Part shown: piece after piece, positions 1 through 22,700 of the stretch
How the letters are laid out: each line of letters begins with the position of its first letter
Position numbering within the stretch: position 1 is the first letter of the stretch
Assembly: GCF_001983935.1 (NCBI RefSeq)
Contig: NZ_CP017641.1
Coordinates: 310,001 to 374,000, forward strand
Origin: Fuerstiella marisgermanici
GTDB lineage: Bacteria; Planctomycetota; Planctomycetia; Planctomycetales; Planctomycetaceae
Direction of reading: 5' to 3'
DNA: 64,000 nt
Notes under the pieces: generated by a model
What the model saw: the letters and a program-made list of their open reading frames with translations, nothing else
What the model was told of the DNA's origin: nothing
The model's database searches: none
Position numbers and translations under genes: made by a program

Positions 1-3000
1 GGACAGAACAACGACCACGAAGGTTGGTATATTGATGACATCATTATTGGATTCAGCGAACGCGGCGAGGCGGTTACCGGTCCCAATCGCAACAACACTA
101 CCTTCTTCGCGACGCCGACCAATCCGGTCTTTGGCGACCCAGCTGTCAATCTGACTGGGCGCTATCAATTGGAAATTCGTGAGGGCACGGAATACGTCTC
201 GTCGAGTGCCGACGGTCTGGGAAATCCGATCAATTCGCTGGTGGCAGACACCAAGATTACCTCCGTATTCGACACGAACGACCGCTTCATCGCAGATCCC
301 GCCCAACCTGGGTCTGTGGGAAGCATTGGTGACCAGAATGTGCATCGTGATCAGGGCCAGGTCACGATTCAAAACAACAGCATTCACTTTGCTCGGGATG
401 TCGGCATTCTGATCAACGCGGCACCTCGAACCGCCGATGGTCTGTCTGCGCCGGGAGCACCACGCAATTTTGATAGTCTTAACACGAAGCGTTGGGCTCC
501 AGGAGTGACGGTTCAGAACAATATTGTTGACAACTTCGGCGATACAGGTATCCGAGTCAGCGGTGACAACGCCGGTGGAGCGGCTGCGGCTGTGCCGTTT
601 GGCAAGATTTTGAACAACACTGTCTATGGCGGCACCACAGCCAACGGCGTTGGCATACGCATCGAACACAACGCGGCACCAACACTGCTGAACAACATCG
701 TGGCCAACACCACGACCAGCATCTCCATTGATGGCAGCCCGAATACGCTCGCCGACACAATTATCGGTACGACTCTGTTTAGTGGAAACGGTGCCAATCC
801 AAATCGAGGCACGGACTTCATTGATCTGTCCGACACCAACGACCCGTTCTACGTGCCCAATGCACCTCTGTTCGTTGATCCGGACAACCTGAACTTCTAC
901 CTGGACGCGGGTAGCCGAGCAATCGATAGTTCGTTGAATCGGCTGCCGGACCGTTCAGAGTTTGAATCGGTCAAAAATCCGCTGGGCATTCCTTCGTCGG
1001 ACACTCTGACGCCTTCGTATGACCGCTTCAATCAGCAGCGAATCGACGATCCGTCGCAGATGAGTGCTTCCGGTCTCGGTTCGCGGATCTTCTTTGACCG
1101 CGGGGCTGTGGAACGAGCCGACTTTATTGGACCGTTCGCTGTGTTGGTCAATCCGTTAGACGGAGCACCGCTGGATCTGGACCCAACTGACCACAACGTG
1201 CTTCGCATTGAAGCGACACACCTGACACAGTTTGTTGTGCAGTTACAGGATGCCGGCATCGGTATCGACGATAACTTCGTCACGGCTTCTCAGTGGGAAC
1301 TGAAACGCAACGGTCAGATTCTGACTGAAGGTGTTGACTATCGGTTCATCTACAACCCGGTAACGGACGAAGTGATCTTCCGAGCTGTCACCGTGTTCGA
1401 AACAGACCGGCACTACACGATTACCGTGATTGACCGAAGTTCCGGATCGGGCATCCGCGACCTTGCTCGCAACTCACTGCAGGCCAACCGTTCGAACGGC
1501 GATGTTCGGTTCGAGATCGTGCTGGACAACGACGCGAACGATGCGCCAGTCAATCTGGCGCCGAACATGGCGATGACAGATGAAGATACGGCCCTGACTT
1601 TTGAAACGGGCACACCGATCGCCATTCGCGTGTCAGACCGTGACACGTATCTCGGCAATAACGAGATCACTGTGACTCTGTTTGGCAACCAGGGCACGCT
1701 GATTCTCCCCGAATCTATCACGACAAATGTCGCTGGTGATGTGGTGACCTTCCCGTCTGCAGCCGCAGCAATTGGTGATGAACTAACGATTCTGGACAAC
1801 AGTGATTCGGCCAATCCCGATCGAGTGATCTTTACGTTCGTCAACGCCGCTGATGTCCCTTCGCCATCGGCAACACAGATCGCCGTTGCTGCGGGCGACC
1901 TGCCTGATGCAGTTGCTGCTGCGGCTGCGGCAGTGATCAATACTTATTTTGGTGCTGCGGCTCCGGCCACAGCGGCGGCTGATTCCATTAATCTGGCTGC
2001 GGACTTTACAGCATCACGTTTGCTGACTGTGGGCACGAACATCGAGGTTGACGGAGCGACCCAGATTTCCGTTCTGGACGGTGCGACCGTCATGGGCGAA
2101 CAGTTCACTGTGGGGATCGTGCAGTTTACGTACGTCGATCAAAATCTCGTGCCTTCACCGGAACTCGATCAGATCGCCATCGATCCGACGGACACCGCTG
2201 CAATGGTGGCCACAAAGACTGCTGCAGCCATCAACGTGGTGCCGTTGTACGGCCCAGGCACGGCGGAAGTGGACGGAACAGACGCAACTCAGGTGAACAT
2301 TCTGGTTCCCGATCTGTTCATCTCAAACACAGACGGCACGTCAATCGGCGTGGATGGCCAGCAGGTGACCTTCCCGAATGGTGCGACTGTCATCGGCGAA
2401 GAAATTGACTTTGACGGCACGGTCTACCGATTTGTTGACCTCAACGATGGCGTGCCAGGTGCTCAGGAAATCGGAGTTGACCAGACATTCTCGGCTCAGA
2501 ATGTGGCAGCAGCTGCACTGACTGTGCTTAATGCGGACTTTGGACCGGGCACCGCAACGCGGGCAAGCAACATCCTGAACCTGGTAGGTGTGACGCCAAC
2601 CTCAGTGATTCCACTTGTTTTGTCGGGCAGCGAATTTGCTTTGCCAGACGGTGCCACAGTGATTGGTGATCATATCGCCATCGGAGGCACAGCCTTCACG
2701 TTCATCGCTCCACCGGTCGCTCCGTTCGTTGCATCTGCAAACGAAATCGTGATTGATCCTGCGGACGACGCAGACACGGTTGCTACGAAAACCGCCGCCG
2801 CGTTGGACGCTTTCTTTGGAGCGGGGACAGCCACTGCTGCGGCCAGCGTTGTCACGGTGCGACGCTTGACGGTGGCGGGCATTACGCCAACAGCGGGTGT
2901 TTCCGTTGTTACACTGACGGGCGATATCACTCAGGTGAATCAAGCTCTAAACGGTCTGCAGTTCCTGCCTCGTCAGGACTACTACGGTCCGGCGGGCGTG

Positions 3001-6000
3001 ACGATTCTTTCTGAAGACAATGGCCAGTTTACTCAGAATCCGGCAAACCGGATCAACATGCTGGACATCGACACGATTCCGATCGTCGTGAAGCCTGTGA
3101 ATGATGATCCGACGATGGATGCGATCGCCGGTCAGCAGATCATTGAAGACCTGGACACGACGCCGATGGATGGTGTCAACGATGTGCAGACGGTTAATAT
3201 GTCCAACATCACAGCCGGTCCGATTAACGAACTGGAACCGCTGGCGGTGACGGCGGCTCTGGATGCGACGACGAATGTCGCGTTCGCCAGCGGCGCGAAT
3301 GTGATCGGTGAAACGCTGACGATTGCTGGCAATGCTCTAGTGTATGTTGACGCGGCTGTTGTGGCGTCTCCCGGGCCGTTGGAAATTGCTGTCAATCTTA
3401 CGGATTCGTCAGAGGCAGTGGCCGCCGCCACAGCCGCCTTTATTAATGCTGCGTTTCCTGGCACGGCCGAAGCAGCGTACAACTTTGTGGCGCTGAAGGT
3501 TGATGCCTCGCAGGTTAGTGGCTCGTCGTCAGAAGTGTTTTCGATCAGCAGCCAGGATGATCTGATCACTGGCCTGACCGTCAACTACACCAGCCCGGAC
3601 GAACTCGGAACGCTGCAATACAGTTCATTGCCAGATGCGTTCGGCATCGCGTATGTCACCGTTACGATTACAGATGGTGGCCTGAACCGCACATTGGACG
3701 GCATTGATGATGCCGTTGTGACTCGCGAGTTCAAGATTACTGTCGTTCCTCAAAACGATGATCCGACGCTGGACACGATTGTCGATGTGAACATCACCGA
3801 AGATCTGGACGCTGACGCTGACGATCTGAACGACGAAGTCGTTGTGCCACTGACCGGGATCACTCCGGCACCGGCCAACGAATTGGAAGACCTTTCGGTC
3901 ACGGCCGTTGTTGCGGACACAACGATCGTCGCCTTCGCGAACGGCACCAATGTGATCGGCGAAACGCTGACAGTGGTTGCTCCATCGGGCACCGTTGTGC
4001 TGACGTTTGTCGACATTGCCACTACGGCAGTCGGCCCAAATCAAATTCGAGTCAATCTTGCGGACACCACGATGCAGGTGGCGTCCGCCGTAGCGGACGC
4101 GATCAACAACCATGCAACCTTCATCGCCGACGGCATCGCGGCTGTGCAGACTGAGAACTCTGTATCGATCAACATTGCCAGCACTGAAGTGAGCGGCAGT
4201 GATGAAGTGGATGCGACGTTTATCAGCAATCAGGACGACCTGATTACTAATCTGACCGTCGATTATCTGCAGAACGCTGCAACGGGAACGCTTCGCTTCA
4301 CACCGGGCCGCAATCAGTTTGGTGGCACGGTTACAGTGACGGTTACTGTGGAAGACGCTGGCATCGATGCCCTGTTGAGCACGGATCGCAACGATGCTGA
4401 TCCTCAGAAACAGAACAGCATTGTTGAACAGGTCTTCACTGTCACTATTCAGCCAGTAAACGACGCTCCAAATCTGGACGCCGTGGCCGATCAGACGGTG
4501 GACGAAGATAGCGGGACTCATCCTGTCGACCTCACGGGCATCTGGGCGGGCATCGACAATCCTTCCGGCGTTCGAGTGCTGAATGAACTGGAAGATGTCA
4601 CCGTCACTCACCAGCTTCACAGCACAACAACGGTTGCCGTGGCGGCTGGCGAAAACGTCATCGGCACAACATTGGACTTTGATGGCACCACCGAGTTCGA
4701 ATTCGTTGACGCCGCCATTGTCACAACACCGACCGATGTGCAAATTGCGGTGAACCTGACCGATTCGACTCAGGACGTCGCATCGAAAGCAGTAGCCGTC
4801 ATCAACGCTAAACTCGGCGCAGGGAAGGTTGTTGCTTATTCCAACACGATCAACACTACGGAAGCCATGACGATCACCGGCAGTTCGTCCGAAGCCTTTG
4901 CGATCATGCAGGCTGCCGACATTGTCACCGGCTTAAACATCACTCACACGCCGCGTAGCGAAACTGGGGTGTTTGAATACTCGACCGTTGGCGACCACTT
5001 TGGCCAGGTGATTGTCACTCTGACGGCCACTGACGCTGGGCTGGATGGCATTGCTGGTAATAGTGACGACGCGAAAATTGACCGCACGTTCATCATCACG
5101 GTGCGGCCGCAAAACGATGATCCGACGTTAGGCGGCATCACGGATATCACGATTGATGAAGATCCTGATACGGATGCCGACAACAGCAACGATGAACAGA
5201 GCTTTGTGATAACGGACATTGGCCCCGGCGCAGCCAACGAACTGGAAGACCTGCAGGTGACTGCAACGTTGACCGACACGACGATCGTGGCATTCGCGAC
5301 CGGTGCCAACGTTGTCGGTGAAACTCTGACGATCGATGGCACGGTATTGACGTTTGTCGACGGCACCAGTGGCGGTCCATTCGGAGCGGACGATATTGCC
5401 GTGCTGCCAGCTGACGACACAAGTGCCGTCGCGGGCAAAGTGGCGGCTGCCATCAACGCTCACGCCGTCATCACCGCGCCTGCTGTGGCGACTGTGAATT
5501 CTGTGGTGATCGAAATTGATAGTGCCCTGGTTTCTGCCAGCGACACTGTGGATGCGATGTTCATCAGCAATCAGGACGATCTGATTACGGGCCTGACCAT
5601 CGACTACAACTCGCGAGAAGCCACGGGCACGCTGCGGTTTACACCGGGCAGGCATCAGTTCGGCGGAACGGTGAACGTCACTGTTGAAGTTGAAGATGCG
5701 GGCATTGACGGCCTCTTCAGCACGGACCGTAACGATGCAGATGACCAGAAGGTCAACCACGTCACGACTCAGACGTTTACGATCACCGTGCTGCCCGTTA
5801 ATGACGCACCGAACCTGGATGAAATCAGCGATCAGGTTGTCGCCGAAGATTCGGGTACTCATGACGTGGATCTAACTCGCATCTGGGCGGGAATGGACCT
5901 CCCGGCTGATGCGCGAGTCGTTAATGAATTGGAAGACATGGATGTCACACAACGACTGCACAACACGACGACGCTGGCGATTGCCGCTGGTAAAAACATG

Positions 6001-9000
6001 GTCGGCGAAACTGTGACAGTCAGCGGTGAAGTGTTTACCTACGTCGACGCTGCGTTCACTGTTCCAACGGCCAACCAGATTGCCGTCGCAGACACCGATT
6101 CGACACACGTGGTCGCTCAAAAAACAGCCGACGTCATCAACGCTCATACGAATCCGCTGCTGGGCGCAGGAACAGTCGTGGCCAGCTACAACACCGTCAA
6201 CACGGTGAAGGAAGCGGCAATGATCGTTGTTGATCCGGCGTCTGATCGTTTCGCAGTCATGCAGGCGGCTGATATTATCAACAGCCTGAGCATCAGCTAC
6301 ATGACTCGCGATACCACCGGCACGTTCAGCTACACCACGGTGGGCGACAACTTTGGTCAGGTCATTGTAAGTATCACCGCAACGGATGCAGGGATTGACG
6401 GTCTGTTCGACGGCGTGGACGATCTGGAGATTGAACGCACGTTTACAATCACGGTCGTCCCGGTCAACGATGATCCGACGTTGGATGCAATCGCAAACAT
6501 CACGATCGACGAAGATCCCGATCTTGATGGTAACCACATCAACGACGAACAAAGCTTCACTCTTACGGGAATTACGGCGGGCCCGGATAACGAACTGGAA
6601 GACATTCTGGCTTATGCAGAGCTGGCGGACACGACGATCGTCGCGTTTGGTAACGGCACGGCTGTACTGAATGAAACTCTGACGGTCGGTGCTGTCACGT
6701 TCACCTTCCGCGACTCATCCACCGGTCCGTTCGGCCCAACCGACATTCCTGTCAGCCCGCTGGGCAACACGATGCATGTCGCGACGGCCGCCGCGAACGC
6801 GATTAACGCTCATCCGACGCTTGGCGTTTCGGCTGTGGCAACGGTCAATTCCATTGCCATCGAAATCAACGATTCGCAGGTTTCGGCCAGCGATACAGCA
6901 GATGCGATGTTCATCAGCAATCAGGACGATCTGATCGCCAACATTGCCGTTGATTACGACACGCGAGACAACACCGGAACGCTGCGGTTCACTCCGGGAC
7001 GTCATCAGTTTGGTGGAACGGTGAACGTGACGGTCACCGTTGAAGATTACGGCATCGACGGCCTGGTCAGCACGGATCGCACCGACGCAGACGGTCAGAA
7101 ACGCAACAACTTCACAACAGAAACATTCACCATCACGGTGTTGCCGGTCAATGACGGCCCAAATCTGGATGAAGTGTCCGCTCAGGAAGTCGACGAAGAT
7201 AGTGGCACACACACCATCAGTCTCACCGATATCTGGTCCGGTATTGAGAATCCTGCCGATCTTCGAGTCATCAATGAACTCGAAAACCTGCGGATCAGCG
7301 AACGTCTGCACGACACGACAACAATCGCGATCGCGGTTGGTGAAAATGTTATCAATGAAACGCTGACGATTGACGGCACCGTCTTTACGTTTGTGGATGC
7401 TGCGACCAACCCATCGCCGACTGATGTGCAGATTGCTGTTGATCTGACAGATGCGACTCAGGTCGTTGCTTCTAAAGCTGCTGCGGTCATCAATGCCAAG
7501 TTGGGGGCAGGCTCAGTCACTGCCTACCAGAATACGATCAACACCACGACCGACCTTGTTGTTTCGGCGAGCTCCACAGACACGTTTGCGTTGATGGCGT
7601 CCAGTGACATCATCGACGGCTTGAGTATCAATTACACGTCACGAGACACGACCGGAACATTCAGCTATTCGACTGTCACGGACGCCTTCGGCCAGGTAAT
7701 CGTTTCGCTGACCACGGACGACGCCGGCATCGACGGCGTGTTTGGTACGGGAGACGATGGCCTGATTGTGCGAACGTTTACTATTAGCGTGAAGCCGATC
7801 AACGACGCCCCAAATATGGACGTCATTCCAGATCAGTTGGTCGACGAAGATGCTGCTGAACAGTTGGTGCCGTTGACGGACATCTGGGCGGGCATCAACG
7901 TGTCTGACGACGCGATGATCGTGAACGAACTGGAAGATATCGACGTCACAGCTGATCTGCACGACACAACATCGGTGGCCATCGCCATCGGTGCCAACGT
8001 GATCGGTCAAACGCTGACGATCGATGGCACGGTATTCACGTTTGTCGACGCGACTGTGACACCGACGCCGACATCCGTTGAAATTCCCGTCAGTCCGATC
8101 GACTTCGACACTGCCGGAGCTGACGCGACTCGAACAGTCGCAACTGCAGCCGCCGCTGTTATCAACGCGGAACTGGGTGCAAACACTGTCGTTGCGTACG
8201 AAAACACGATTAACACCACTGGCAACGTTACGGTAGCAGCCAGTTCGACCGACACCTTTGCGATTATGCTGTCGTCGGACATTGTCAGTGATCCGCAGAT
8301 TGACTACGTTTCACGTAACCCAGCGAGCACCGGTACCCTGCGGTACACGCCTGCCGGCAATGCATTCGGCGTCGTTATCGTTACTGTGACCACCGAAGAT
8401 GCCGGCGTGGATGGCATCTTTGAAGATGATTCCAACACGATCGGCGTTGACGAAAGTCTTGACAATATCGCGATCACGCGAACCTTCACCATCACGGTGA
8501 ATCCCATCAACGACGACCCGACGATGGACGAAGTCGATGGTTCCACCGTTTCTGCCGGTACAGAAACGGACGAAGACGAAGCTCAGCAAAGCGTGCCTTT
8601 GACCGGTATCACCGCGGGACCGATCAACGAACTGGAGGACATTCGCCTCACGCCGACGTTGCACGACACGACAACGGTGGCCATCGCCATTGGCGAAAAT
8701 GTGATCGGCGAAACGCTCACGATCAACGGAACGGTGTTCACGTTTGTTGACGCCGATGTGGTCACTTTGCCAGGCACCACAGAAATCGCCGTTAGCATGA
8801 CGGATTCCACCTTCGAAGTGGCCGTTCAGGCGGCCGCTGTCATCAACGCGGCTCTTGGAGTCGATACGGCCATTGCGTCGTCGAATACGGTTAACATCGC
8901 GTCGCCGGATGTCGTGGCAAGTTCAACGGCCGCTTTTGCCCTGATGTCTGCATCAGACGTGATCACCATTGACGGCATCGACTACGTGACTCGCAATCTC

Positions 9001-12000
9001 GCCGGAGAAGGCACATTCCTGTACACGCCGGTTGGCAATGCGTTCGGCGTCGTGACGGTGACCATCCGCACAGAAGATGCAGGGGGTGACGGTCTGCTTG
9101 AGACGACGGCCGACAACAACTTTATCGAACGCACATTCACCATTACCGTGAATCCAGTGAACGACGATCCGACACTGGACGCCGTGCCGGATCAGGCGCC
9201 AGTGAATGAAGATTCGGGCGAACATTCGGTTCCACTGTCCGGCATTTACGCTATGGCACTGCCGTCGGTGAATGAACTGGAAGACATGACCGTCACCGCA
9301 GAACTGGCGGACACAACGATCGTGGCTGTGGCGGTCGGCGACAACGTGATCGGCCAGTCACTGACAATCAACGGCACCGTCTTTGAGTTCGTAGATCTTG
9401 CCACGACGACTCCGAATGGAACTGACATCGGAGTCAACCGCACAGACGATACCTCCGCCGTTGCGGCAGCTGCTGCGGCTGTGATTAACGTCACCTTCCC
9501 GGGCATGGCTATCCCCACTCAGAACTCTGTTGCTCTTTCTACGGCGAAAGCCAACGTCAGCGGTACGGATACGGTCGACGCATTTGCGATCTTCGACCAG
9601 AACGACCTGATCGCTGATTTCGCTATCGATTACACCACGAGGGACACGACGGGCACCTTCCGATACACGCCGGCAGGCCATCAGTTTGGCGGTCCTGTTA
9701 CCGTGAAAATCACCGTGGAAGACTGGGGCGAAGACGGGCTGCTCGAAGACAAGTCCGGCACCCTGCGTGACGAGTCTGCCGACAATAACTTCATCGAAGA
9801 ATTCTTCACGATTACTGTTCTGCCGGACAATGACGACCCGAATATGGCCGCCATTGCCGATCAGGATACGACGGAAGACGCCGCTGAACAGAGCGTTTCG
9901 CTGATCGATATCTGGGCCGGTGTGGACACCACAACGGGCGTTCGAATCACGAACGAGCTCGAAGATATCGCGCTAACGCTGGAATTGGCAGATACCACGA
10001 CTGTGGCGTTTGCGGCGGGCGGCAATATGTTCGGCGAAGTGATCACCGTTGACGGCAGTGTATTCACCTTTGTGGATGCGGCAGTCACACCATCGCCGAC
10101 GAACCTGCAGATCGCAGTGAGCGACGGCGATACCACTCAATCTGTGGCCACTGCCGCCGCTGCGGTCATCAATGCAGAACTGGGAGCGGGTACGGTTGTC
10201 GCGACTGACAACACCATCAGCACGCTGAATGCAGCGACGACCGTCGCGGTTGCCGCAACGTCGGACCGATTCGCTGTGATGACGGCAAGCGACATCGTGA
10301 CTGATCTGGCGATTGACTACACGTCGCGAGACACAACCGGCACATTCCGTTACACGCCGGTGGCGAACAACTTCGGGCAGGTGCAGATCACGATCACCAC
10401 AACCGACGCCGGTGTGGATGGCATCTTCGGCAACGGGGATGACCATGCGATTACGCAATCGTTTAGCATTACCGTGGAACCAATCAACGACGATCCCACA
10501 ATAGATGTCATCGCCAATCAAACCGTCACCGAAGACGATCCGGAACAGAGTGTCACGCTCACGGGAATTCATGCCATTCGCCTGCCGTGGACAAACGAAC
10601 TGGAGGATATCCGGCTTTCGGCAACGCTACACGACACGAGGACCGTTGTCGTAGCGATCGGAGACCGAGTTATCGATGAAACGATCACGATTGGCTCGAC
10701 CACATTTACGTACGTGGACGAAGCCATCACTCCGTCACCGGACGCGGATGAGATTGCAGTCCTGCGAGGCGACACGTCTCAGACAGTTGCGACCAAGACG
10801 GCTGCACGAGTCAACGCACTGCTTGGCGCGAACACAGTTGTTGCGACAGACAACACCGTGAACACGGCTTCCACAGCCGTCTTCAGCTCAGGTGACGCGT
10901 TCTCGCTGATGTCGTCGTCTGAGATCGTCGATTCGGCCAGCATGGCGATCGATTACAACTCCCGCGACAACACGGCCACCTTCCGTTACACACCGATTGC
11001 GAACGCCTTCGGTCAGGTCACGGTGACCATCACCACCGAAGATGCCGGTGTGGATGGTGTCTACGGTACGGGCGACGAACGGTCCATCGATCGCACCTTT
11101 ACTATCACCATCGTGCCGGTCAACGACAATCCAACCCTGGATCCGATTGCCGATCAGGACACAACAGAAGACTTCCCTCAGCAGTCGGTACCGCTGTCTG
11201 GTATCTACACCATTCAGCAAGTGGAACACAACGAGCTGGAAGATATTCAGTTGTCGGCAACGCTGGCTGCAACGAAGTCGATTGCTGTCGCCACCGGTCA
11301 AAACATGATCGGCGAGTCCATCACAGTGGGCGGCGTGGTATTCCAGTACGTCGACGCTGCTAGTAGTCCGGTTCCGGCTCCGCAGCAGATCGCTGTGCTT
11401 AGCTCGTTTGATACCAGCCAGGTGGCGAATGCTACGGCGATCACGGTGAACGCTTTGCTTGGCGGAGGAACGATGACTTCTGCCTTCAATACCGTCACCA
11501 CGGCTGCCACCGTGGCTGTTAGTAATACGGATCGCTTGGCAGTCATGGACGCCGCCGACATTATCACCGACCTTGACTTCACCTACACCTCGCGTGACAC
11601 CACTGGACTGTTCCTGTACACACCGGTCGCGCATGCGTTTGGGCAGGTTACCGTCACAGTTACCGCCACGGATGCGGGCGTGAACGGTCTGTTCGGTGAT
11701 ATCGGTGACCTGCCAGTTTCGCAGACGTTTACCATCACGGTGCAGCCGATCAACGACACCCCGGTCATGGATCCGGTTGCTGATCAAACAGTAGACGAAG
11801 ATGCACCTGCACAATCTGTTAGCCTGAACAACATCTTCGCAATTGCCCCGTCGGAAGTGAATGAACTGGAAGACATCGCGTTCACCCACCAGGTTCACGA
11901 CACACGGACCATCGCGATTGCTGTTGGAGCGAACGTAATCGGCGAGAGCATCACGATCAACGGCAATGTGTTCACTTATGTGGACGCATCGCTCGGTGGA

Positions 12001-15000
12001 GCGGCCGTAAACGAAATTGCTGTGTTCGCCAACGATCCGACTCAGCTTGTCGCTTCGAAAACAGCCACCGTCGTCAACGCACTGCTCGGCGCGAACACGC
12101 TTGTGGCATCGCATAACACGGTTAACACCACGTCGGATGTCACAACGGTCGCAGTCAGCAACACCGACCGCTTTGCCGTCATGACAGCGGCAGAAGTTAT
12201 CACGGCGACCAGTGTCAGCTATGTGTCACGCAACAGTGGCGGGACGTTCAACTACACGCCTGTCGCAGATGCCTTTGGCCGGGTGATCGTGACGATCACT
12301 CAAACAGACGCGGGCGTAGACGGAATCTTTGGCAGTGGCGGAGATGACATCTCCGTGACGGACACCTTCACGATCACGGTCGTTCCGCAAAACGACTTGC
12401 CAACTCTGGACGCCACTCTGGACCAGGTTGTCACCGAAGATGCTGGCATGCAGACGATCGATCTGACGGGCATCACGCCACGACCAGCGAACGAACTGGA
12501 AGACATCCGAGTTACTCACGACTTGCACAACACCACAACCGTGGCTGTGCCTGTCGGGTCTCGGACATTCGGCGAAACGCTGACGGTTGGCGGAGTGCCG
12601 TTTACGTTTGTCGAAGCGGGCGTTACGCCATCACCGACATCGCAGCAGATCGCCGTCAACGGCAATGATTCGACGATCGACGTGGCGACTAAAGCGGCTG
12701 CTGTGATTAATGCTCGACTGGGTGCTGGCACCGTACTGGCTAGTCGCAACACGCTGAACACAGCGTCCAGTGTGACGGCCAGTTCCAGCACGAAGTTTGC
12801 CATCATGGCGGCTGGCGAAATCGTCGACAATTTGAATCTTACCTACGTCTCCCGTGCTGACAGTGGCACGCTGGACTACACGCCAGTGGCGAATGCGTTT
12901 GGTGTCGTCACGATCACCGTCACAACGCGAGATGCGGGTGTCGACGGGATCTTCGACAACAGCGACGACCGGGTGATCACGGATACGTTCAACATTACTG
13001 TGGACGCCGTAAACGATTCGCCAACACTGGACGCGATCGCCGACCAAACGACAGACGAAGATGCGACTCAACAGCAGATTCCACTGTCGGGCATCTACAA
13101 CATCGCTCCACCGACGACCAACGAACTGGAACATCTGCGAGTTTCTCACACGCTGCATGCGACGACGACGATCGCTGTCGCAAATGGTGCTGACGTTGTG
13201 GGTGAAACTCTGACGATCGATGGGACTGTCTTCACATTTGTCGATGCTACGACAACCGCGGCACCGACGTCAACGGAGATTGCCGTTAACGCGGCGGATT
13301 CGACTCAACAGGTGGCCACGACCGCCGCTGCCGTGATCAATGCAGAATTAGGTGCCGGCACAGTTACGGCTGTTCATAACACGCTGAATACCGAATCCAC
13401 CGTCGTAGCCAGTTCTGTAACGGCCTTCGCCACAATGCCTGCGTCTGGCATCGTGCAGGGGCTCGCCTTTAACTACAACAGTGGCGACAACACCGGTTCG
13501 ATGCGTTACACGCCAGTTGCGAATGCGTTCGGACAGGTCACGGTCACTGTGATACTCGCCGATGCTGGCGTCGACGGTATCTTCGGAACCAGCGACGACC
13601 TCTCGACAACCCAGACGTTCAATATCACGGTTGCCCCTCAAAACGACGCGCCCGTGCTTAACGGATTGGGCAATCTGACCAACGTTGAAGACGGCCCGGA
13701 AGGTTCTGCTCCGCTAAGCGGCATTCTGAACATCGCGGCACCGACGACCAACGAACTCGAAAACGTTCGTTTCGAAACCGAACTGCACGCGACTAATTCG
13801 GTCGCTGTGGCGGTCGGAAGTAACGTGATCGGTGAGAGCATTACGATCGGCACGACGACGTTCTCATACGTCAACGCCATAACGGTGAATTCGCCAACGC
13901 CGCTGCAAATCGCCGTCTTCCCGGATGACTCCACTCAGAACGTAGCCTCGAAGTCCGCTGTTGTGATCAACAACCGGCTCGGTGCGAACACTGTCGTCGC
14001 CACAAACAACACGTTGAACACGGCTCAACCGGTTCTTGTTAGTTCCACTGACCGATTCGCTGTGCGACAGGCATCGCAACTGGTTGAAGGTTTGGCCGTC
14101 GATTACGTATCACGAGCCACTGACGGAACTTTCCGCTACACGCCATCAGCTGATGCATTTGGACAGGTCACCGTGACCGTGCGAGCCATTGATGCGGGCG
14201 TTGACGGTCAGCCAGGCGGCGGCGACGACAAGGTGGCGGAACGGACCTTCACCATCACGATTGCTCCTGAAAACGACGTGCCGGTCTTTACGGCCAACGA
14301 TCACATCACCAGCGAGAATGCTGCAGAGCAATCGGTGACGATCACAGGCATCGGCACACGACACGCGCCGGCGTTCGACGAATTGGAAGACATTCGCCTG
14401 GACTTCAACCTTGAAGATTCCTCCATCCTTGTCGTGCCAAACGGCGAACGAGCCATTGGAAATACCATCACTGTGAACGGCACCGTGTTCACGTATGTCG
14501 ACGCTGCGTCAACCACCACACCGGTGGCTGGCGAGATTGCAGTAAACATCGGCGACACCACTCGAACTGTGGCGACGGCGACCGCCGCTGCCATCAATGC
14601 AGAGCTGGGAGCCAATACGGCTGCCGCTTCACACAACACGGTCAACACCTCAGCGACCGTGGTGCCAGGTTCAGCGACAGACTTCGATCTGTTCGCCGCT
14701 GCAGACGTTGTCGAAAATCTTGCAATCGATTACACGTCGCGAGCTACCACTGGTACGCTGCGTTACACACCGGTTGCGGATGCATTTGGCCAGGTCACTG
14801 TCACGCTGACGGCGACTGACGCCGGAGTCGACGGCATCTTCAACACGGCAGACGACGAAGTCACGACGGATTCGATTACGCTCACTGTAGTACCCGCGAA
14901 TGACCTGCCTGGAATCAACCCGATTTCGAAGCAGGTGATTTTGGAAGACAGCGGTGCTCAAGCGATTCCACTAAACGGCATCACACCGGGACCGCTGGGC

Positions 15001-18000
15001 GAGTTTGAAGACATTCGGATCTCGGCAGCCGTTAATGCGGGCAATATCCTGGTCGTGCCGAGCGGTGGAAACGCCGTTGGTCGTTCGATACAGGTGGGTG
15101 GCGAAACATTTACATATGTCACATCATCAGCGGGATCAACTACGGACATCGTCATCTTCGACGTTGTCACATTGGTCACGAAAGATTCCACCTTCGAAGT
15201 CGCCGAAGCAACCGCTCAGGCACTGAACAGGCATTTCGGAGCCGGGACTGCAACGTGGCACCAGAATACTGTGTTGACCCTGCTGCCGATCACCGCACCA
15301 TCTGAGTTTGTTGTGAAGACGGGGGCGGACATTATCTCTGCACCAAGTATCACCTACACCTCAGGCAACGCAGCTGGTTCTCTGAACTTTACGACGCTGC
15401 CGCATCAGTTCGGTACTGTCAACATGACGGTCACCGTTCAGGATGCTGGCGTCGATGGTGTGTTCAATACCTCTGACGATGGCACCACGACAGTGCCGGT
15501 TCAGGTCGTCGTCGATGCCGTCAATGACTCGCCGACGTTGAACGCACTCGCCAATCTGCTGCTGCCTGTCAGTGCCGGTCAGCAGACGATCGACCTCACC
15601 GGCATCTTCCGAGGTCCCGACAACGAACTTGATGATGTCATGGTGACTGTCACCAGCAGTAACACAGACCTCATCCCAACGCCGACCGTGCAATACCTGA
15701 CTCCGCAGAACGCCGGTTCGCTCACGTTCACACCGGTTGCGGGAATGTCCGGTTCTGCCCGAATTACGGTCACCGTTACAGACAATGGTGTCGACGGCGT
15801 CTTCGACGACCCGTTGACTCCAGCGAACGAACGGGCCGACAACCGCATGGTCACGCGTTCGTTTATCGTGTCGACGCCACCAATCGTGCTGGCGCCATCG
15901 GGGACGATTTCGGACAGCACGCCGCTGCTGCAATGGACGCAAATTGGTAACTCGCCCGCTTACGAAATGCGACTGCTGAACGTCACGGAAAATTCGTTCG
16001 TGACACTGGGCACCGGTCAAACGGCGGGCACGTCATTCCAGGTTAACACGCCTCTGCCGTTGGGGGAATATCAATTCGAAGTGCGAGCCATCGATGCGTT
16101 GGGTGTGCCTGGGCTGTGGAGCCAGCCGTCGACGTTCACGGTCGCGGCTTCGATTACTGTCGTGACACCGTCGTCTGACCGACTGCCGGATTCCACGCCA
16201 ACGTTTAGTTGGACAGCCGTCAGCGGTGCAGATTCGTATTCGCTGCAAATTTTCAACGATGTGACAGGTGAGTCCGTTTACCTTGTCGAAGACCTAACGA
16301 TCACTCAGCACACCGTGCCATCAGGCAGCGATCTTCCGCTGGGCCGTTATCGTTACGTTATCACGGCGGTTAACACGCCGGCGAACTCTTCGACGGGAGG
16401 TACTATCTCGGCAGTCACAGAAGGCGTCTTTACAGTTTCGACGCCGCCTGAAATTGACCTACCGTTCGTGGCGATCTACGACACGACGCCAGAGATTACT
16501 TGGACGCTGCCTGCTGGAGCGGTCTCAACCGAGCTGGAAGTCTTCAACGTGACCACCAACTCCGTTCAGTTCACTGAGTCGAATATCACCGGCACGTCTT
16601 ACGCGGTTACCGATTCGCAAACGCTGCCGTACGGTCGCTACGAAGCTCGCGTGCGAGCCTTCGCAGATGCCGCCGGGACGATTGCATCGGACCTGAGTAC
16701 GGTCCACGTATTCCAGGTTGGAGCACCACCAGTTCTGTCTGGCCCAGCGGGTGCTGCCAACCCACGACAGACAGTGAATGCTCGCCCAAGTCTTACATGG
16801 AACGGGTCGCTTAACGGCGAACGATACAAGATCTGGGTCACCAACGTCACGTCGGGCGAAGTCCTTTACGTTATTGACAACCTGACAACGCAAAGCTGGA
16901 CGCCACCGGCCAACTTAACGGTCGGCGAATACCGCTATTGGGTACAGGCGAAAACGGGAACCGGCGAAGTCAGTCCGTGGAGTAACGAATACAACTTCAA
17001 AGTCGTCACTCCGCCGACCATCAACAATACTCAGCCGTCGACCCTCGAAAGTCGGCCGACGATCACATGGAACGCTCAAACGGGCATCGATTCGTGGCAG
17101 ATTTGGGTGAACAAGGTGGACGAAGTGCCCGCTCGAGTGCTCTACACAACCAACGGTCTAGCGGCTCCAACGTTTACGATTCCGGAAGACCTTGTCGAAG
17201 GACGGTATAAGGTTTGGGTTCGTGGCACGGCCGTGAACGAAACTACAGGCAGCACCACGGTCACTTCGTGGAGTACGCCGTACGAATTCGAACTCGGTGG
17301 CCGGCCAGTGATCACTCACCCGACGAACACCACAGACACAACACCGACCTTCACGTGGTTTAGTGTGGCGTCTTCAGCCAGCTACGAGATCTTCGTTTCG
17401 ACAGCAGCCGAACCGGGCACGGCCATCATTCGAGAAGCTGGCCTGACATCGCCGTCTTACACGGTGACGTCACCGCTGGACAACGGTTCGTACATGGTTT
17501 GGGTGCGAGCCCGCAGTGCCGATGGAACGATTACCAAGTGGAGTCTCACGTCGCAGGCACGAGTCAACATCAACACGGTAGCGGCTCCGGTCGTCAACAA
17601 CGTGCCCGGCGGATCGGATCGCACGCCAACGATTTCATGGACGGCCGTAAGCGGTGCCAATCGTTACGAAGTCTTTATCTCACGCAGCACGTCACCGTCT
17701 GTGGCCGTTATCCAGGATGCGAACGTCACAGGGACAAGCTTCACACCGACCACCGATCTCAATCCGGACGACTACCGAGTGTGGGTGCGAACGATTGACC
17801 TGGACGGCAACACGAGTGCGTGGAGTAGCGCGATTTCATTCACGGTGACCTCAACTGGTGGCGATGCCACCGGTACCGACATCAGCATGTCAGAGATTGT
17901 TCTGCTGGCTTCTATGGATGCCGCTGATGCCGCCTTTGAGGACGTGCAGGTAACCGTCAGCCACACGGCGTCCGATGCAATGGCCGCCATCGACGAAACG

Positions 18001-18267
18001 GCCACGAAGCCCGCTCGAAGGGTTCGTCGAGTGGTTCCGGTTGTCGTGAAAGACGCACTGCCTGCTGAAGAAGTTGTTTCCGGCGACGAGTTGATGTCGA
18101 ACTGGGACGACGAGATCTGGGCTGTCGAATCTGCCGCACCGGTTGATACGGCTCCACCGACAGAATCGGCGGCGAGCGACCAGAAGCAGGCCTCTGCAGG
18201 CTGGCTGGCCGGTCTTGCGGCCCTGACGCCAGCTGTCCTGCGTCGTCGCCGCAAGGAGGAAAAGTAA
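1..18267 (+). CDS. Giant secreted Ig-like/FN3 repeat protein with nested insert modules (5' end outside window)
   Basis: The frame is open from the first base, so the gene starts upstream; 6088 residues are visible. The protein is probably secreted or surface-anchored with an adhesive or structural role, which I infer from architecture only. In order: residues 1-60 resemble the end of a jelly-roll domain (GWYIDDIIIG); about 100-260 show beta-helix-like turns with repeated 'NNxV/I' steps (VTIQNNSI, VTVQNNIV, ILNNTVYG, LLNNIVAN); about 375-510 an Ig-like domain; 513-1033 one Ig/cadherin-like host with four small inserted modules; 1034-5174 nineteen interrupted Ig-like repeats; 5175-5290 an uninterrupted repeat; 5290-5950 seven FN3-like repeats; then an acidic/Ala-rich linker. 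The C-terminus is GWLAGLAALTPAV followed by LRRRRKEEK, a short hydrophobic stretch plus basic tail like PEP-CTERM-type sorting signals, though no PEP motif is seen. No enzyme motif is evident. Codon use is uniform throughout and no frameshift is seen. Confidence 0.93.
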   Translation, partial: GQNNDHEGWYIDDIIIGFSERGEAVTGPNRNNTTFFATPTNPVFGDPAVNLTGRYQLEIREGTEYVSSSADGLGNPINSLVADTKITSVFDTNDRFIADPAQPGSVGSIGDQNVHRDQGQVTIQNNSIHFARDVGILINAAPRTADGLSAPGAPRNFDSLNTKRWAPGVTVQNNIVDNFGDTGIRVSGDNAGGAAAAVPFGKILNNTVYGGTTANGVGIRIEHNAAPTLLNNIVANTTTSISIDGSPNTLADTIIGTTLFSGNGANPNRGTDFIDLSDTNDPFYVPNAPLFVDPDNLNFYLDAGSRAIDSSLNRLPDRSEFESVKNPLGIPSSDTLTPSYDRFNQQRIDDPSQMSASGLGSRIFFDRGAVERADFIGPFAVLVNPLDGAPLDLDPTDHNVLRIEATHLTQFVVQLQDAGIGIDDNFVTASQWELKRNGQILTEGVDYRFIYNPVTDEVIFRAVTVFETDRHYTITVIDRSSGSGIRDLARNSLQANRSNGDVRFEIVLDNDANDAPVNLAPNMAMTDEDTALTFETGTPIAIRVSDRDTYLGNNEITVTLFGNQGTLILPESITTNVAGDVVTFPSAAAAIGDELTILDNSDSANPDRVIFTFVNAADVPSPSATQIAVAAGDLPDAVAAAAAAVINTYFGAAAPATAAADSINLAADFTASRLLTVGTNIEVDGATQISVLDGATVMGEQFTVGIVQFTYVDQNLVPSPELDQIAIDPTDTAAMVATKTAAAINVVPLYGPGTAEVDGTDATQVNILVPDLFISNTDGTSIGVDGQQVTFPNGATVIGEEIDFDGTVYRFVDLNDGVPGAQEIGVDQTFSAQNVAAAALTVLNADFGPGTATRASNILNLVGVTPTSVIPLVLSGSEFALPDGATVIGDHIAIGGTAFTFIAPPVAPFVASANEIVIDPADDADTVATKTAAALDAFFGAGTATAAASVVTVRRLTVAGITPTAGVSVVTLTGDITQVNQALNGLQFLPRQDYYGPAGVTILSEDNGQFTQNPANRINMLDIDTIPIVVKPVNDDPTMDAIAGQQIIEDLDTTPMDGVNDVQTVNMSNITAGPINELEPLAVTAALDATTNVAFASGANVIGETLTIAGNALVYVDAAVVASPGPLEIAVNLTDSSEAVAAATAAFINAAFPGTAEAAYNFVALKVDASQVSGSSSEVFSISSQDDLITGLTVNYTSPDELGTLQYSSLPDAFGIAYVTVTITDGGLNRTLDGIDDAVVTREFKITVVPQNDDPTLDTIVDVNITEDLDADADDLNDEVVVPLTGITPAPANELEDLSVTAVVADTTIVAFANGTNVIGETLTVVAPSGTVVLTFVDIATTAVGPNQIRVNLADTTMQVASAVADAINNHATFIADGIAAVQTENSVSINIASTEVSGSDEVDATFISNQDDLITNLTVDYLQNAATGTLRFTPGRNQFGGTVTVTVTVEDAGIDALLSTDRNDADPQKQNSIVEQVFTVTIQPVNDAPNLDAVADQTVDEDSGTHPVDLTGIWAGIDNPSGVRVLNELEDVTVTHQLHSTTTVAVAAGENVIGTTLDFDGTTEFEFVDAAIVTTPTDVQIAVNLTDSTQDVASKAVAVINAKLGAGKVVAYSNTINTTEAMTITGSSSEAFAIMQAADIVTGLNITHTPRSETGVFEYSTVGDHFGQVIVTLTATDAGLDGIAGNSDDAKIDRTFIITVRPQNDDPTLGGITDITIDEDPDTDADNSNDEQSFVITDIGPGAANELEDLQVTATLTDTTIVAFATGANVVGETLTIDGTVLTFVDGTSGGPFGADDIAVLPADDTSAVAGKVAAAINAHAVITAPAVATVNSVVIEIDSALVSASDTVDAMFISNQDDLITGLTIDYNSREATGTLRFTPGRHQFGGTVNVTVEVEDAGIDGLFSTDRNDADDQKVNHVTTQTFTITVLPVNDAPNLDEISDQVVAEDSGTHDVDLTRIWAGMDLPADARVVNELEDMDVTQRLHNTTTLAIAAGKNMVGETVTVSGEVFTYVDAAFTVPTANQIAVADTDSTHVVAQKTADVINAHTNPLLGAGTVVASYNTVNTVKEAAMIVVDPASDRFAVMQAADIINSLSISYMTRDTTGTFSYTTVGDNFGQVIVSITATDAGIDGLFDGVDDLEIERTFTITVVPVNDDPTLDAIANITIDEDPDLDGNHINDEQSFTLTGITAGPDNELEDILAYAELADTTIVAFGNGTAVLNETLTVGAVTFTFRDSSTGPFGPTDIPVSPLGNTMHVATAAANAINAHPTLGVSAVATVNSIAIEINDSQVSASDTADAMFISNQDDLIANIAVDYDTRDNTGTLRFTPGRHQFGGTVNVTVTVEDYGIDGLVSTDRTDADGQKRNNFTTETFTITVLPVNDGPNLDEVSAQEVDEDSGTHTISLTDIWSGIENPADLRVINELENLRISERLHDTTTIAIAVGENVINETLTIDGTVFTFVDAATNPSPTDVQIAVDLTDATQVVASKAAAVINAKLGAGSVTAYQNTINTTTDLVVSASSTDTFALMASSDIIDGLSINYTSRDTTGTFSYSTVTDAFGQVIVSLTTDDAGIDGVFGTGDDGLIVRTFTISVKPINDAPNMDVIPDQLVDEDAAEQLVPLTDIWAGINVSDDAMIVNELEDIDVTADLHDTTSVAIAIGANVIGQTLTIDGTVFTFVDATVTPTPTSVEIPVSPIDFDTAGADATRTVATAAAAVINAELGANTVVAYENTINTTGNVTVAASSTDTFAIMLSSDIVSDPQIDYVSRNPASTGTLRYTPAGNAFGVVIVTVTTEDAGVDGIFEDDSNTIGVDESLDNIAITRTFTITVNPINDDPTMDEVDGSTVSAGTETDEDEAQQSVPLTGITAGPINELEDIRLTPTLHDTTTVAIAIGENVIGETLTINGTVFTFVDADVVTLPGTTEIAVSMTDSTFEVAVQAAAVINAALGVDTAIASSNTVNIASPDVVASSTAAFALMSASDVITIDGIDYVTRNLAGEGTFLYTPVGNAFGVVTVTIRTEDAGGDGLLETTADNNFIERTFTITVNPVNDDPTLDAVPDQAPVNEDSGEHSVPLSGIYAMALPSVNELEDMTVTAELADTTIVAVAVGDNVIGQSLTINGTVFEFVDLATTTPNGTDIGVNRTDDTSAVAAAAAAVINVTFPGMAIPTQNSVALSTAKANVSGTDTVDAFAIFDQNDLIADFAIDYTTRDTTGTFRYTPAGHQFGGPVTVKITVEDWGEDGLLEDKSGTLRDESADNNFIEEFFTITVLPDNDDPNMAAIADQDTTEDAAEQSVSLIDIWAGVDTTTGVRITNELEDIALTLELADTTTVAFAAGGNMFGEVITVDGSVFTFVDAAVTPSPTNLQIAVSDGDTTQSVATAAAAVINAELGAGTVVATDNTISTLNAATTVAVAATSDRFAVMTASDIVTDLAIDYTSRDTTGTFRYTPVANNFGQVQITITTTDAGVDGIFGNGDDHAITQSFSITVEPINDDPTIDVIANQTVTEDDPEQSVTLTGIHAIRLPWTNELEDIRLSATLHDTRTVVVAIGDRVIDETITIGSTTFTYVDEAITPSPDADEIAVLRGDTSQTVATKTAARVNALLGANTVVATDNTVNTASTAVFSSGDAFSLMSSSEIVDSASMAIDYNSRDNTATFRYTPIANAFGQVTVTITTEDAGVDGVYGTGDERSIDRTFTITIVPVNDNPTLDPIADQDTTEDFPQQSVPLSGIYTIQQVEHNELEDIQLSATLAATKSIAVATGQNMIGESITVGGVVFQYVDAASSPVPAPQQIAVLSSFDTSQVANATAITVNALLGGGTMTSAFNTVTTAATVAVSNTDRLAVMDAADIITDLDFTYTSRDTTGLFLYTPVAHAFGQVTVTVTATDAGVNGLFGDIGDLPVSQTFTITVQPINDTPVMDPVADQTVDEDAPAQSVSLNNIFAIAPSEVNELEDIAFTHQVHDTRTIAIAVGANVIGESITINGNVFTYVDASLGGAAVNEIAVFANDPTQLVASKTATVVNALLGANTLVASHNTVNTTSDVTTVAVSNTDRFAVMTAAEVITATSVSYVSRNSGGTFNYTPVADAFGRVIVTITQTDAGVDGIFGSGGDDISVTDTFTITVVPQNDLPTLDATLDQVVTEDAGMQTIDLTGITPRPANELEDIRVTHDLHNTTTVAVPVGSRTFGETLTVGGVPFTFVEAGVTPSPTSQQIAVNGNDSTIDVATKAAAVINARLGAGTVLASRNTLNTASSVTASSSTKFAIMAAGEIVDNLNLTYVSRADSGTLDYTPVANAFGVVTITVTTRDAGVDGIFDNSDDRVITDTFNITVDAVNDSPTLDAIADQTTDEDATQQQIPLSGIYNIAPPTTNELEHLRVSHTLHATTTIAVANGADVVGETLTIDGTVFTFVDATTTAAPTSTEIAVNAADSTQQVATTAAAVINAELGAGTVTAVHNTLNTESTVVASSVTAFATMPASGIVQGLAFNYNSGDNTGSMRYTPVANAFGQVTVTVILADAGVDGIFGTSDDLSTTQTFNITVAPQNDAPVLNGLGNLTNVEDGPEGSAPLSGILNIAAPTTNELENVRFETELHATNSVAVAVGSNVIGESITIGTTTFSYVNAITVNSPTPLQIAVFPDDSTQNVASKSAVVINNRLGANTVVATNNTLNTAQPVLVSSTDRFAVRQASQLVEGLAVDYVSRATDGTFRYTPSADAFGQVTVTVRAIDAGVDGQPGGGDDKVAERTFTITIAPENDVPVFTANDHITSENAAEQSVTITGIGTRHAPAFDELEDIRLDFNLEDSSILVVPNGERAIGNTITVNGTVFTYVDAASTTTPVAGEIAVNIGDTTRTVATATAAAINAELGANTAAASHNTVNTSATVVPGSATDFDLFAAADVVENLAIDYTSRATTGTLRYTPVADAFGQVTVTLTATDAGVDGIFNTADDEVTTDSITLTVVPANDLPGINPISKQVILEDSGAQAIPLNGITPGPLGEFEDIRISAAVNAGNILVVPSGGNAVGRSIQVGGETFTYVTSSAGSTTDIVIFDVVTLVTKDSTFEVAEATAQALNRHFGAGTATWHQNTVLTLLPITAPSEFVVKTGADIISAPSITYTSGNAAGSLNFTTLPHQFGTVNMTVTVQDAGVDGVFNTSDDGTTTVPVQVVVDAVNDSPTLNALANLLLPVSAGQQTIDLTGIFRGPDNELDDVMVTVTSSNTDLIPTPTVQYLTPQNAGSLTFTPVAGMSGSARITVTVTDNGVDGVFDDPLTPANERADNRMVTRSFIVSTPPIVLAPSGTISDSTPLLQWTQIGNSPAYEMRLLNVTENSFVTLGTGQTAGTSFQVNTPLPLGEYQFEVRAIDALGVPGLWSQPSTFTVAASITVVTPSSDRLPDSTPTFSWTAVSGADSYSLQIFNDVTGESVYLVEDLTITQHTVPSGSDLPLGRYRYVITAVNTPANSSTGGTISAVTEGVFTVSTPPEIDLPFVAIYDTTPEITWTLPAGAVSTELEVFNVTTNSVQFTESNITGTSYAVTDSQTLPYGRYEARVRAFADAAGTIASDLSTVHVFQVGAPPVLSGPAGAANPRQTVNARPSLTWNGSLNGERYKIWVTNVTSGEVLYVIDNLTTQSWTPPANLTVGEYRYWVQAKTGTGEVSPWSNEYNFKVVTPPTINNTQPSTLESRPTITWNAQTGIDSWQIWVNKVDEVPARVLYTTNGLAAPTFTIPEDLVEGRYKVWVRGTAVNETTGSTTVTSWSTPYEFELGGRPVITHPTNTTDTTPTFTWFSVASSASYEIFVSTAAEPGTAIIREAGLTSPSYTVTSPLDNGSYMVWVRARSADGTITKWSLTSQARVNINTVAAPVVNNVPGGSDRTPTISWTAVSGANRYEVFISRSTSPSVAVIQDANVTGTSFTPTTDLNPDDYRVWVRTIDLDGNTSAWSSAISFTVTSTGGDATGTDISMSEIVLLASMDAADAAFEDVQVTVSHTASDAMAAIDETATKPARRVRRVVPVVVKDALPAEEVVSGDELMSNWDDEIWAVESAAPVDTAPPTESAASDQKQASAGWLAGLAALTPAVLRRRRKEEK
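1537..3099 (+). repeat. Ig/cadherin-like host domain carrying four tandem insert modules
   Basis: The host opens with NDAPVNLAPNMAMTDED and closes with ITQVNQALNGLQFLP, the usual beginning and end of one bacterial Ig/cadherin-like repeat. Between them lie four diverged copies of a small module, at roughly 1738-1985, 2065-2290, 2365-2570 and 2635-2870. Each has 'xFPxGAxxIGE...I', a strand such as DGTVYRFVD or GGTAFTFIA, then 'xxIxIDPxDxxxxVAxKTAAAIN' and 'FGxGTAT'. The module is the one found singly in each later repeat. Confidence 0.8.
3100..15522 (+). repeat. Nineteen tandem ~654-bp protein repeats, each an Ig-like unit with an internal insert module
   Basis: Units begin at the codon for N of 'NDDPTLD' or its variants: 3100, 3754, 4459, 5113, 5800, 6466, 7150, 7801, 8509, 9160, 9829, 10486, 11122, 11752, 12391, 13012, 13642, 14272 and 14899. 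Unit lengths run from 621 to 708 bp. Each unit reads: 'NDxPTLDxIxDQxxxED', 'VPLTGI', 'NELEDI', then an insert of about 105 residues containing 'VIGETLTIDGTVFTFVDA', 'QIAVxxxDSTQxVA' and 'AAAVINAxLGAGTV', then the second half of the Ig-like fold 'IDYTSRDTTGTFRYTPVA', 'AFGQVTVTVTxTDAGVDG' and 'RTFTITV'. The repeats are diverged at DNA level but clearly homologous at protein level. Confidence 0.9.
15523..15870 (+). repeat. Last Ig-like repeat, lacking the insert module
   Basis: This unit starts with NDSPTLNALANLLLP and has the same start and end as the nineteen preceding units (LTGIF, NELDDV, AGSLTFTPVAG, ARITVTVTDNGVDG). Between NELDDV and SLTFTP it contains only about 30 residues, including VTSSNTDLIPTPTVQYLTP, which is the ordinary uninterrupted form of this fold. 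It is about 116 residues long against about 218 for the others, and so marks where the insert lies in the rest. Confidence 0.85.
15871..17850 (+). repeat. Seven fibronectin-III-like repeats (~280 bp each)
   Basis: Each unit begins with a proline-rich start such as PPIVLAPSG, ITVVTPSSD, PPEIDLPF, PPVLSGPAG, PPTINNTQP, RPVITHPTN or APVVNNVPGG. It continues with 'TPTFSWTAVSGADSYSLQI' or a variant and ends with 'LPxGxYRVWVRAxDxxGxxSxWS'. The conserved Trp, the 'YxVWVRA' strand and the 'WSxxxxFTV' ending match FN3-like beta sandwiches common in bacterial surface proteins. Confidence 0.8.
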
Positions 18268-22404: not shown

Positions 22405-22700
22405 GTTTCTTCTCCTGGACTCGAGGTGATGGTCTGCATACTGTGCCACTTGAGAAACTCGTGGGGCATAACACGAAAGGCGTTTTTTCTCAATTGGCGA
22501 TTTGAGTACCGGAATCAGGCTGCGGAAGGAAAATTGCGGGACAACTGGTTCGATTTCAGTCCAACGCACCCAGCTTGGATCCAGCAGCTGCGTTGCAACG
22601 GCTCCTGTTATGCGGCTACGGTTTCTCGTAAGATCGGACTACTTCAGTCGTTTTTCGGGCAACGAATCCCGACAACGCGGTGCCTTTGGGACACAGAAAA
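22405..22700. other. Divergent intergenic region upstream of the unknown operon and the kinase gene
   Basis: About 296 bp separate the two divergent starts and must hold promoters for both. I see no convincing -10/-35 pair and no strong inverted repeat. A longer open frame from the minus-strand gene crosses part of it but lacks a ribosome-binding site. Confidence 0.4.

Follow-up and report, generated by a model that had tools for sequence, protein, structure and literature searches.

The 64,000-nucleotide stretch of Fuerstiella marisgermanici DNA analysed here (NZ_CP017641.1, positions 310,001 to 374,000; 'the window' below) opens inside a giant gene. The 3' part of this gene occupies window positions 1..18267 on the forward strand, as do all the features of the gene described below. 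The complete frame has 8396 codons (G000:C1:303077-328267, stop included; first Met at codon 19), and its 5' part lies upstream of the window. Read from N to C, the window part comprises an immunoglobulin (Ig)-like region that contains four copies of a small module, nineteen repeat units each split in two by such a module, a twentieth unit that is not split, and a C-terminal Ig/FN3-like region. It is the nineteen split units, each a domain with another domain inside it, that concern us.

In an alignment of all twenty units, the nineteen split ones run without interruption from 3094 to 15516, a shift of a few bases from the 3100–15522 of an earlier, sequence-only reading. That reading held that nineteen ~218-residue repeats are each split at one fixed site by one and the same module, and in the alignment this is true of 19 out of 19. 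The size of the insert can be measured between two anchors of our choosing, the end of the NELEDI strand and the start of the IDYTS strand. These are 106–117 residues apart in all 19 split units of the window, 102 in a nested unit from one relative (G003) and 108 in that of another (G004), but only 12 apart in each of ten unsplit units: unit 20 (15517..15870), which serves as a natural empty-site control, and nine from the G003 orthologue. The net insert is thus ~90–105 residues in a single loop. Host positions that flank it are invariant on both sides across the twenty units, and the module itself is present in nineteen and absent from unit 20. Two features lay beyond the sequence-only reading: this naturally unsplit unit at 15517, and four more modules in tandem at 1741–2922.

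The repeats are diverged, since pairwise identity among the nineteen averages only 48% for the host halves (range 31–69%) and 43% for the modules (23–65%), and Tandem Repeats Finder called no repeat within the array. Given this divergence, the missing Tandem Repeats Finder call, the 8396-codon frame and a genome that consists of one contig of 8,920,478 bases, misassembly of the array is unlikely. All nineteen modules are in frame. Five of their residues (G14, V56, A57, N65 and N78) are invariant, and there are conserved Phe, Asp and Asn positions besides, in a conservation listing without coordinates. The modules contain no Trp, no Cys and little Tyr.

When two adjacent units, 15 (12385..13005, module 12523-12810) and 16 (13006..13635, module 13153-13440), were modeled together with AlphaFold2, each was predicted to form three host strands, then a separate beta-alpha domain, then four more host strands—the assignment of strands to host or module being ours. 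The module of unit 16 was also predicted to fold on its own. On these models the guest is inserted within an Ig-like domain whose fold is finished afterwards. The domain-in-domain claim of the sequence-only reading is borne out by the separable insert, and no profile in our Pfam, NCBIfam and PHROGs scans spans an entire unit as one known domain. The opposite view, that each unit is one continuous ~218-residue domain, can draw on the constant order of parts in all 19 window units. Against it stand the unsplit units with their 12-residue linkers, the AlphaFold2 pair, the module that folds alone and the bare modules in tandem; it is refuted as far as prediction can go, and we give it next to no credence.

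The host halves are predicted to fold like cadherin domains, as seven-strand sandwiches in tandem. They match the tandem-95 repeat profile (NCBIfam NF012211, 98 positions) with E-values of 8.8e-12 and 2.9e-8, and the best stretches, 41–94 and 42–94, correspond to the half that follows the insert. The scores, 44.8 and 33.6 bits, fall under the curated cut-off of 90 bits; they belong to the middle and last thirds of the window part (the profile was not listed for the first), and scanning in thirds lowers the summed score. Scanned in this way, the window part produced nothing above the curated cut-offs of Pfam and NCBIfam, and a single PHROG under 1e-3, in the C-terminal region; the upstream part, scanned separately, yielded no NF012211 match. 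Classical cadherins carry the calcium motif DxNDN. There is none in the giant frame, in which NDxP occurs 21 times, 20 of these at the starts of units 1–20. He_PIG (PF05345) matches 42 times in this genome, and never in the giant gene.

By fold, the predicted module resembles phage tail sheath and nozzle proteins, phage capsid proteins, flagellins and FliD: 37 of the 39 entries shown by VIA-align are, by title, phage virion or flagellar proteins. Foldseek alone was weaker (best PDB E 0.071, best BFVD E 1.9e-4). The likeness to phage-tail and flagellar-hook proteins that had been suspected from the sequence therefore stands at the level of fold, from structure matches, and is weak by sequence, where Flagellin_IN (PF07196) matched one of 54 modules at E 1.1e-4 and PHROG 165 matched four of 54, at best E 0.0029. 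A sequence search of the PDB with the module returned one match up to E 10, an unrelated protein at 2.8, and the 23 window modules, compared singly with Pfam, reached at best E 0.0024 (KH_GLD-3). Other one- or two-member matches, scattered over unrelated families, were judged to be chance. A direct phage origin was considered and set aside: one module, searched by tblastn in 50,697 phage records, had no match at E 0.1, and of 216 stretches matched when viral contigs were scanned with seven close modules, none was confirmed. Sequence searches of this kind leave room for a distant common origin with the phage proteins.

How widely does the module occur? Searched with the module profile, our own genome has 23 copies in the giant gene and six in another very large protein (6394 codons), which shows 45% identity over its C-terminal region. 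In that second protein, six or more diverged modules stand in tandem in mid-protein (L050 12328-13779, G000:C1:5442328-5443779), and a profile search found no cadherin-like unit beside them. Within the class, 65 of 397 genomes, our own included, match the module with an E-value no higher than 1e-3, and most of these matches fall in frames that run to thousands of codons; at most 13 candidates were scored per genome, so that copy counts are lower bounds. Across the phylum the figure is 10 of 294, again counting our own, with four of the ten outside the class.

The whole nested unit is rarer. Its profile matches at full length in at least three of 170 family genomes: our own (18, out of 18 candidates scored), G003 (1) and G004 (1); the remaining matches listed are partial, and mostly cover the half after the insert. 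In the G003 orthologue (JANSXP010000024.1, Planctomycetaceae bacterium MAG bin.28), a lone module lies far upstream and a tandem pair in the early Ig-like region; toward the C-terminus eight unsplit units follow, then a nested unit, and an unsplit unit comes last. That early region, of another type than the array units, holds four tandem modules in the window protein and four in G004. The G004 contig (C312) ends within its second unit, making its nested-unit count a lower bound. Four genomes of the same genus (G001, G002, G005 and G007) gave no module match, but in at least some drafts the gene is split across contigs. Contigs were seen to break in or beside the repeats both at the end of G004:C312 and at the start of G005:C553, and nested-unit counts from drafts are to be read as minima. 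One further locus in the family, L104 (G426:C169), has cadherin-like repeats interrupted at another site by a different small insert (...FSIVVDTEIMTVTGISGNNFTVIRG..., by eye ~65 residues long); split beads with other guests thus exist in this family.

If whole units duplicate, host and module similarities should agree, and among the nineteen units they do (Mantel r 0.58, P 0.0001). Modules also follow the C-half of their own unit (r 0.63, P 0.0002), but no such agreement links a C-half with the module of the following unit (r 0.11, P 0.24). In units 2–7 the host identities and the module identities both alternate in an ABABAB pattern, with a period of two units: type A are units 2 (3748..4452, module 3910-4230), 4 (5107..5793, module 5269-5571) and 6 (6460..7143, module 6622-6921), and type B are units 3 (4453..5106, module 4615-4911), 5 (5794..6459, module 5956-6264) and 7 (7144..7794, module 7306-7599). 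The array then continues with units 8 (7795..8502, module 7957-8271), 9 (8503..9153, module 8659-8949), 10 (9154..9822, module 9304-9597), 11 (9823..10479, module 9985-10284), 12 (10480..11115, module 10627-10914), 13 (11116..11745, module 11263-11550) and 14 (11746..12384, module 11893-12186) and, after the modeled pair, 17 (13636..14265, module 13783-14070) and 18 (14266..14892, module 14410-14697).

The trees add a time scale of sorts. In the module tree, one branch (90/94, not starred) separates nested from bare modules. The bare modules pair by position with those of G004: b2 (2059..2358) at 99/98, b3 (2362..2631) at 92/92 and b4 (2635..2922) at 78/75; b1 (1741..2055) does so less clearly, grouping with one G003 and one G004 bare module at only 62/75. 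Unit 1 (3094..3747, module 3259-3552) pairs with the G004 nested unit, at 96/90 by module and 81/54 by host. Unit 19 (14893..15516, module 15031-15321) pairs with the G003 nested unit at 97/94 by module; by host it is unpaired, although that pairing is not rejected (approximately unbiased test, p-AU 0.318). The branches of unit 19, of a G003 bare module and of G004 b3 are long, and the program flags their placement as unsure. Forcing the 19 window modules together without their relatives is nearly rejected (p-AU 0.059). From these pairings, and that near-rejection, the nested units at the two ends of the array probably predate the split of these species; the rest, for the most part, probably reflect expansion on the window's lineage, or loss elsewhere.

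That the array grew by duplication of already nested units, partly as two-unit blocks, is supported, then, but not settled. The sequence-only reading proposed one insertion followed by amplification of the whole unit. The amplification is favored by the host–module correlation and by the pairings in the module tree; the one insertion is neither shown nor rejected, a single origin of all 21 split hosts having a p-AU of 0.267. Other observations weigh against whole-unit duplication. The N-halves agree weakly with the modules (r 0.26–0.27, P 0.04–0.05) and with the C-halves (r 0.16–0.21, P 0.07–0.13), and units farther apart in the array are less similar, an effect that could contribute to the host–module correlation. 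Units 15 and 19 fall, with weak support, on the unsplit side of the host tree, and the module of unit 5 is not grouped with those of units 3 and 7.

Might the module instead have spread separately, by many insertions at a favored loop of pre-existing cadherin-like repeats, without duplication of whole units? The poor agreement of the N-halves and the placement of units 15 and 19 would suit such a history, as would the occurrence of the module elsewhere, in four tandem copies, in the second giant protein and in the 65 class genomes. It fits badly with the correlation of host and module, with the period shared by both in units 2–7, and with the window's split hosts, which cluster away from the others in the host tree at a cost of two changes (none of 500 shuffles was as low). 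We regard it as improbable, and prefer duplication of nested units. A shifted duplication register, in which module i travels with the N-half of unit i+1, did no better than the units in register (r 0.20, P 0.07). Nor did a 12-residue linker profile, run over the 21 split units, reveal the footprint of a duplicated insertion site: stretches inside the module often outranked its flanks, whose median ranks, though fairly high, were 4–7 (N side) and 3–10 (C side) of ~100 positions, depending on the window used and taking the best of several flank positions.

The remainder of the giant protein offers hints of setting. Its upstream part matches a matrixin-type peptidase and a PPC domain, each at E 1.2e-4 and below cut-off, and contains the only HExxHxxxxxH motif in the frame. 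The four bare modules lie in an earlier Ig/cadherin-like region (1534..3093), a single domain by eye, as are its boundaries (NDAPVNLAP... GTLILP, LTGDITQVNQALNGLQFLP...). The C-terminal region (15871..18264) consists, by eye, of Ig/FN3-like segments and a short Arg-rich C-terminus. Every Pfam match there is below cut-off, and four stretches match PHROG 31, 'central tail fiber J' (E 3.8e-13, window 15868-16191), perhaps on account of FN3/Ig-like repeats. The Arg-rich end looks like a sorting tail (MYXO-CTERM, E 0.051, 14 of 20 bits). The rod is probably extracellular or at the cell surface. Downstream of the gene, at 22680–25331, lies a Ser/Thr protein kinase (Pkinase, E 7.4e-47) with a weak, leucine-rich-repeat-like match at its C-terminus.

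Split Ig-like domains are known from RTX adhesins. In MpIBP, FrhA and AhLap the chain exits the Ig-like sandwich before it is complete, forms a guest domain that projects from the rod, and returns to finish the sandwich (PMC12077191, PMC10865825); the predicted topology here is the same, likewise on a rod built of Ig-like units. The difference is that all 19 units of our main array are split by one same guest, of another fold. GGxGxD nonapeptide repeats are a hallmark of RTX adhesins, and the 8396 residues of the giant frame contain none. Planctomycetes, for their part, often encode giant genes (PMC11573180), and giant cadherin-like and tandem-95 proteins have been reported from them (PMC7717043, PMC11573180). 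Our host halves match the tandem-95 profile and have the predicted cadherin-like fold of such giants, but the score is below the curated cut-off and the repeat is interrupted by a guest. The guest's predicted fold is that of phage tail sheath, T7 gp12 nozzle, flagellins, FliD and Flagellin_IN, but its host is a cadherin-like rod, not the subunit of a tube or filament, and there are many copies per chain. In the literature searched, which covers few subscription journals, no array with every unit split by the same guest was found, and among the papers listed for nested bacterial Ig/cadherin arrays only the two on RTX split domains were on point (PMC12077191, PMC10865825). Split Ig-like domains and planctomycete giants are known, then; a whole array split by one guest appears, within these searches, to be new.

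What might such an array do? By sequence and prediction, the chain leaves each bead after the third of seven strands, folds the beta-alpha guest, and re-enters to complete the bead. The cadherin-like core would be the load-bearing rod and, because the same arrangement in RTX adhesins projects the guest off the rod axis, each insert would project sideways as a lobe, giving nineteen lobes at regular spacing. A fibre so decorated could touch an external surface, or neighboring fibres, weakly and at many points. Weak multivalent contact, outward or between rods, seems to us most likely; a lateral functional arm on each bead, which the sequence-only reading suggested, is an inference. Taken whole—split cadherin-like beads, guests of phage/flagellar fold, growth by duplication of nested units, a decorated weak-contact fibre—this is an explanation in which we have good, if not complete, confidence. 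A bolder version, in which a mobile domain of phage-tail or flagellin type became fixed in a bead and was amplified into a 19-fold surface fibre whose lobes dock on those of neighboring rods to build a sheet or cable sideways, strikes us as quite unlikely.

The inserts could also be ligand-binding heads, making the protein a multivalent adhesin with 19 heads on its rod. Binding heads of RTX adhesins are recognized by their emergence from split Ig-like domains, one guest each (PMC12077191; also PMC10865825), and planctomycete giant proteins have been assigned putative adhesion roles from their domains (PMC7717043). But modules without Trp or Cys, and with little Tyr, offered no binding site in the conservation listing; virion and flagellar entries lead the fold matches, and none of the titles names a lectin; and in AhLap a few split domains with differing guests adjoin a long unsplit extender array. 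We hold this as a tentative possibility. A serious rival to weak contact, unlikely as we judge it, is that the inserts are ballast that is tolerated: the giant repeat protein would have grown near-neutrally, with the module adding bulk only. The module does turn up in varied giant proteins, and the G003 orthologue manages with eight unsplit units and one split ahead of its last. Yet all 19 modules are in frame and retain their core despite pairwise identities of 23–65%, which suggests that selection acts on the module fold. Rivals that concern origin and those that concern function are not mutually exclusive, and their likelihoods need not sum to one.

Nature has supplied controls: unit 20 of this protein and nine units of the G003 orthologue are unsplit, and two relatives have single nested units. 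With these the growth of a domain-in-domain array becomes readable. The array offers a regular, side-decorated protein scaffold, and it links a fold of phage tails and flagella to the giant rods of bacteria.

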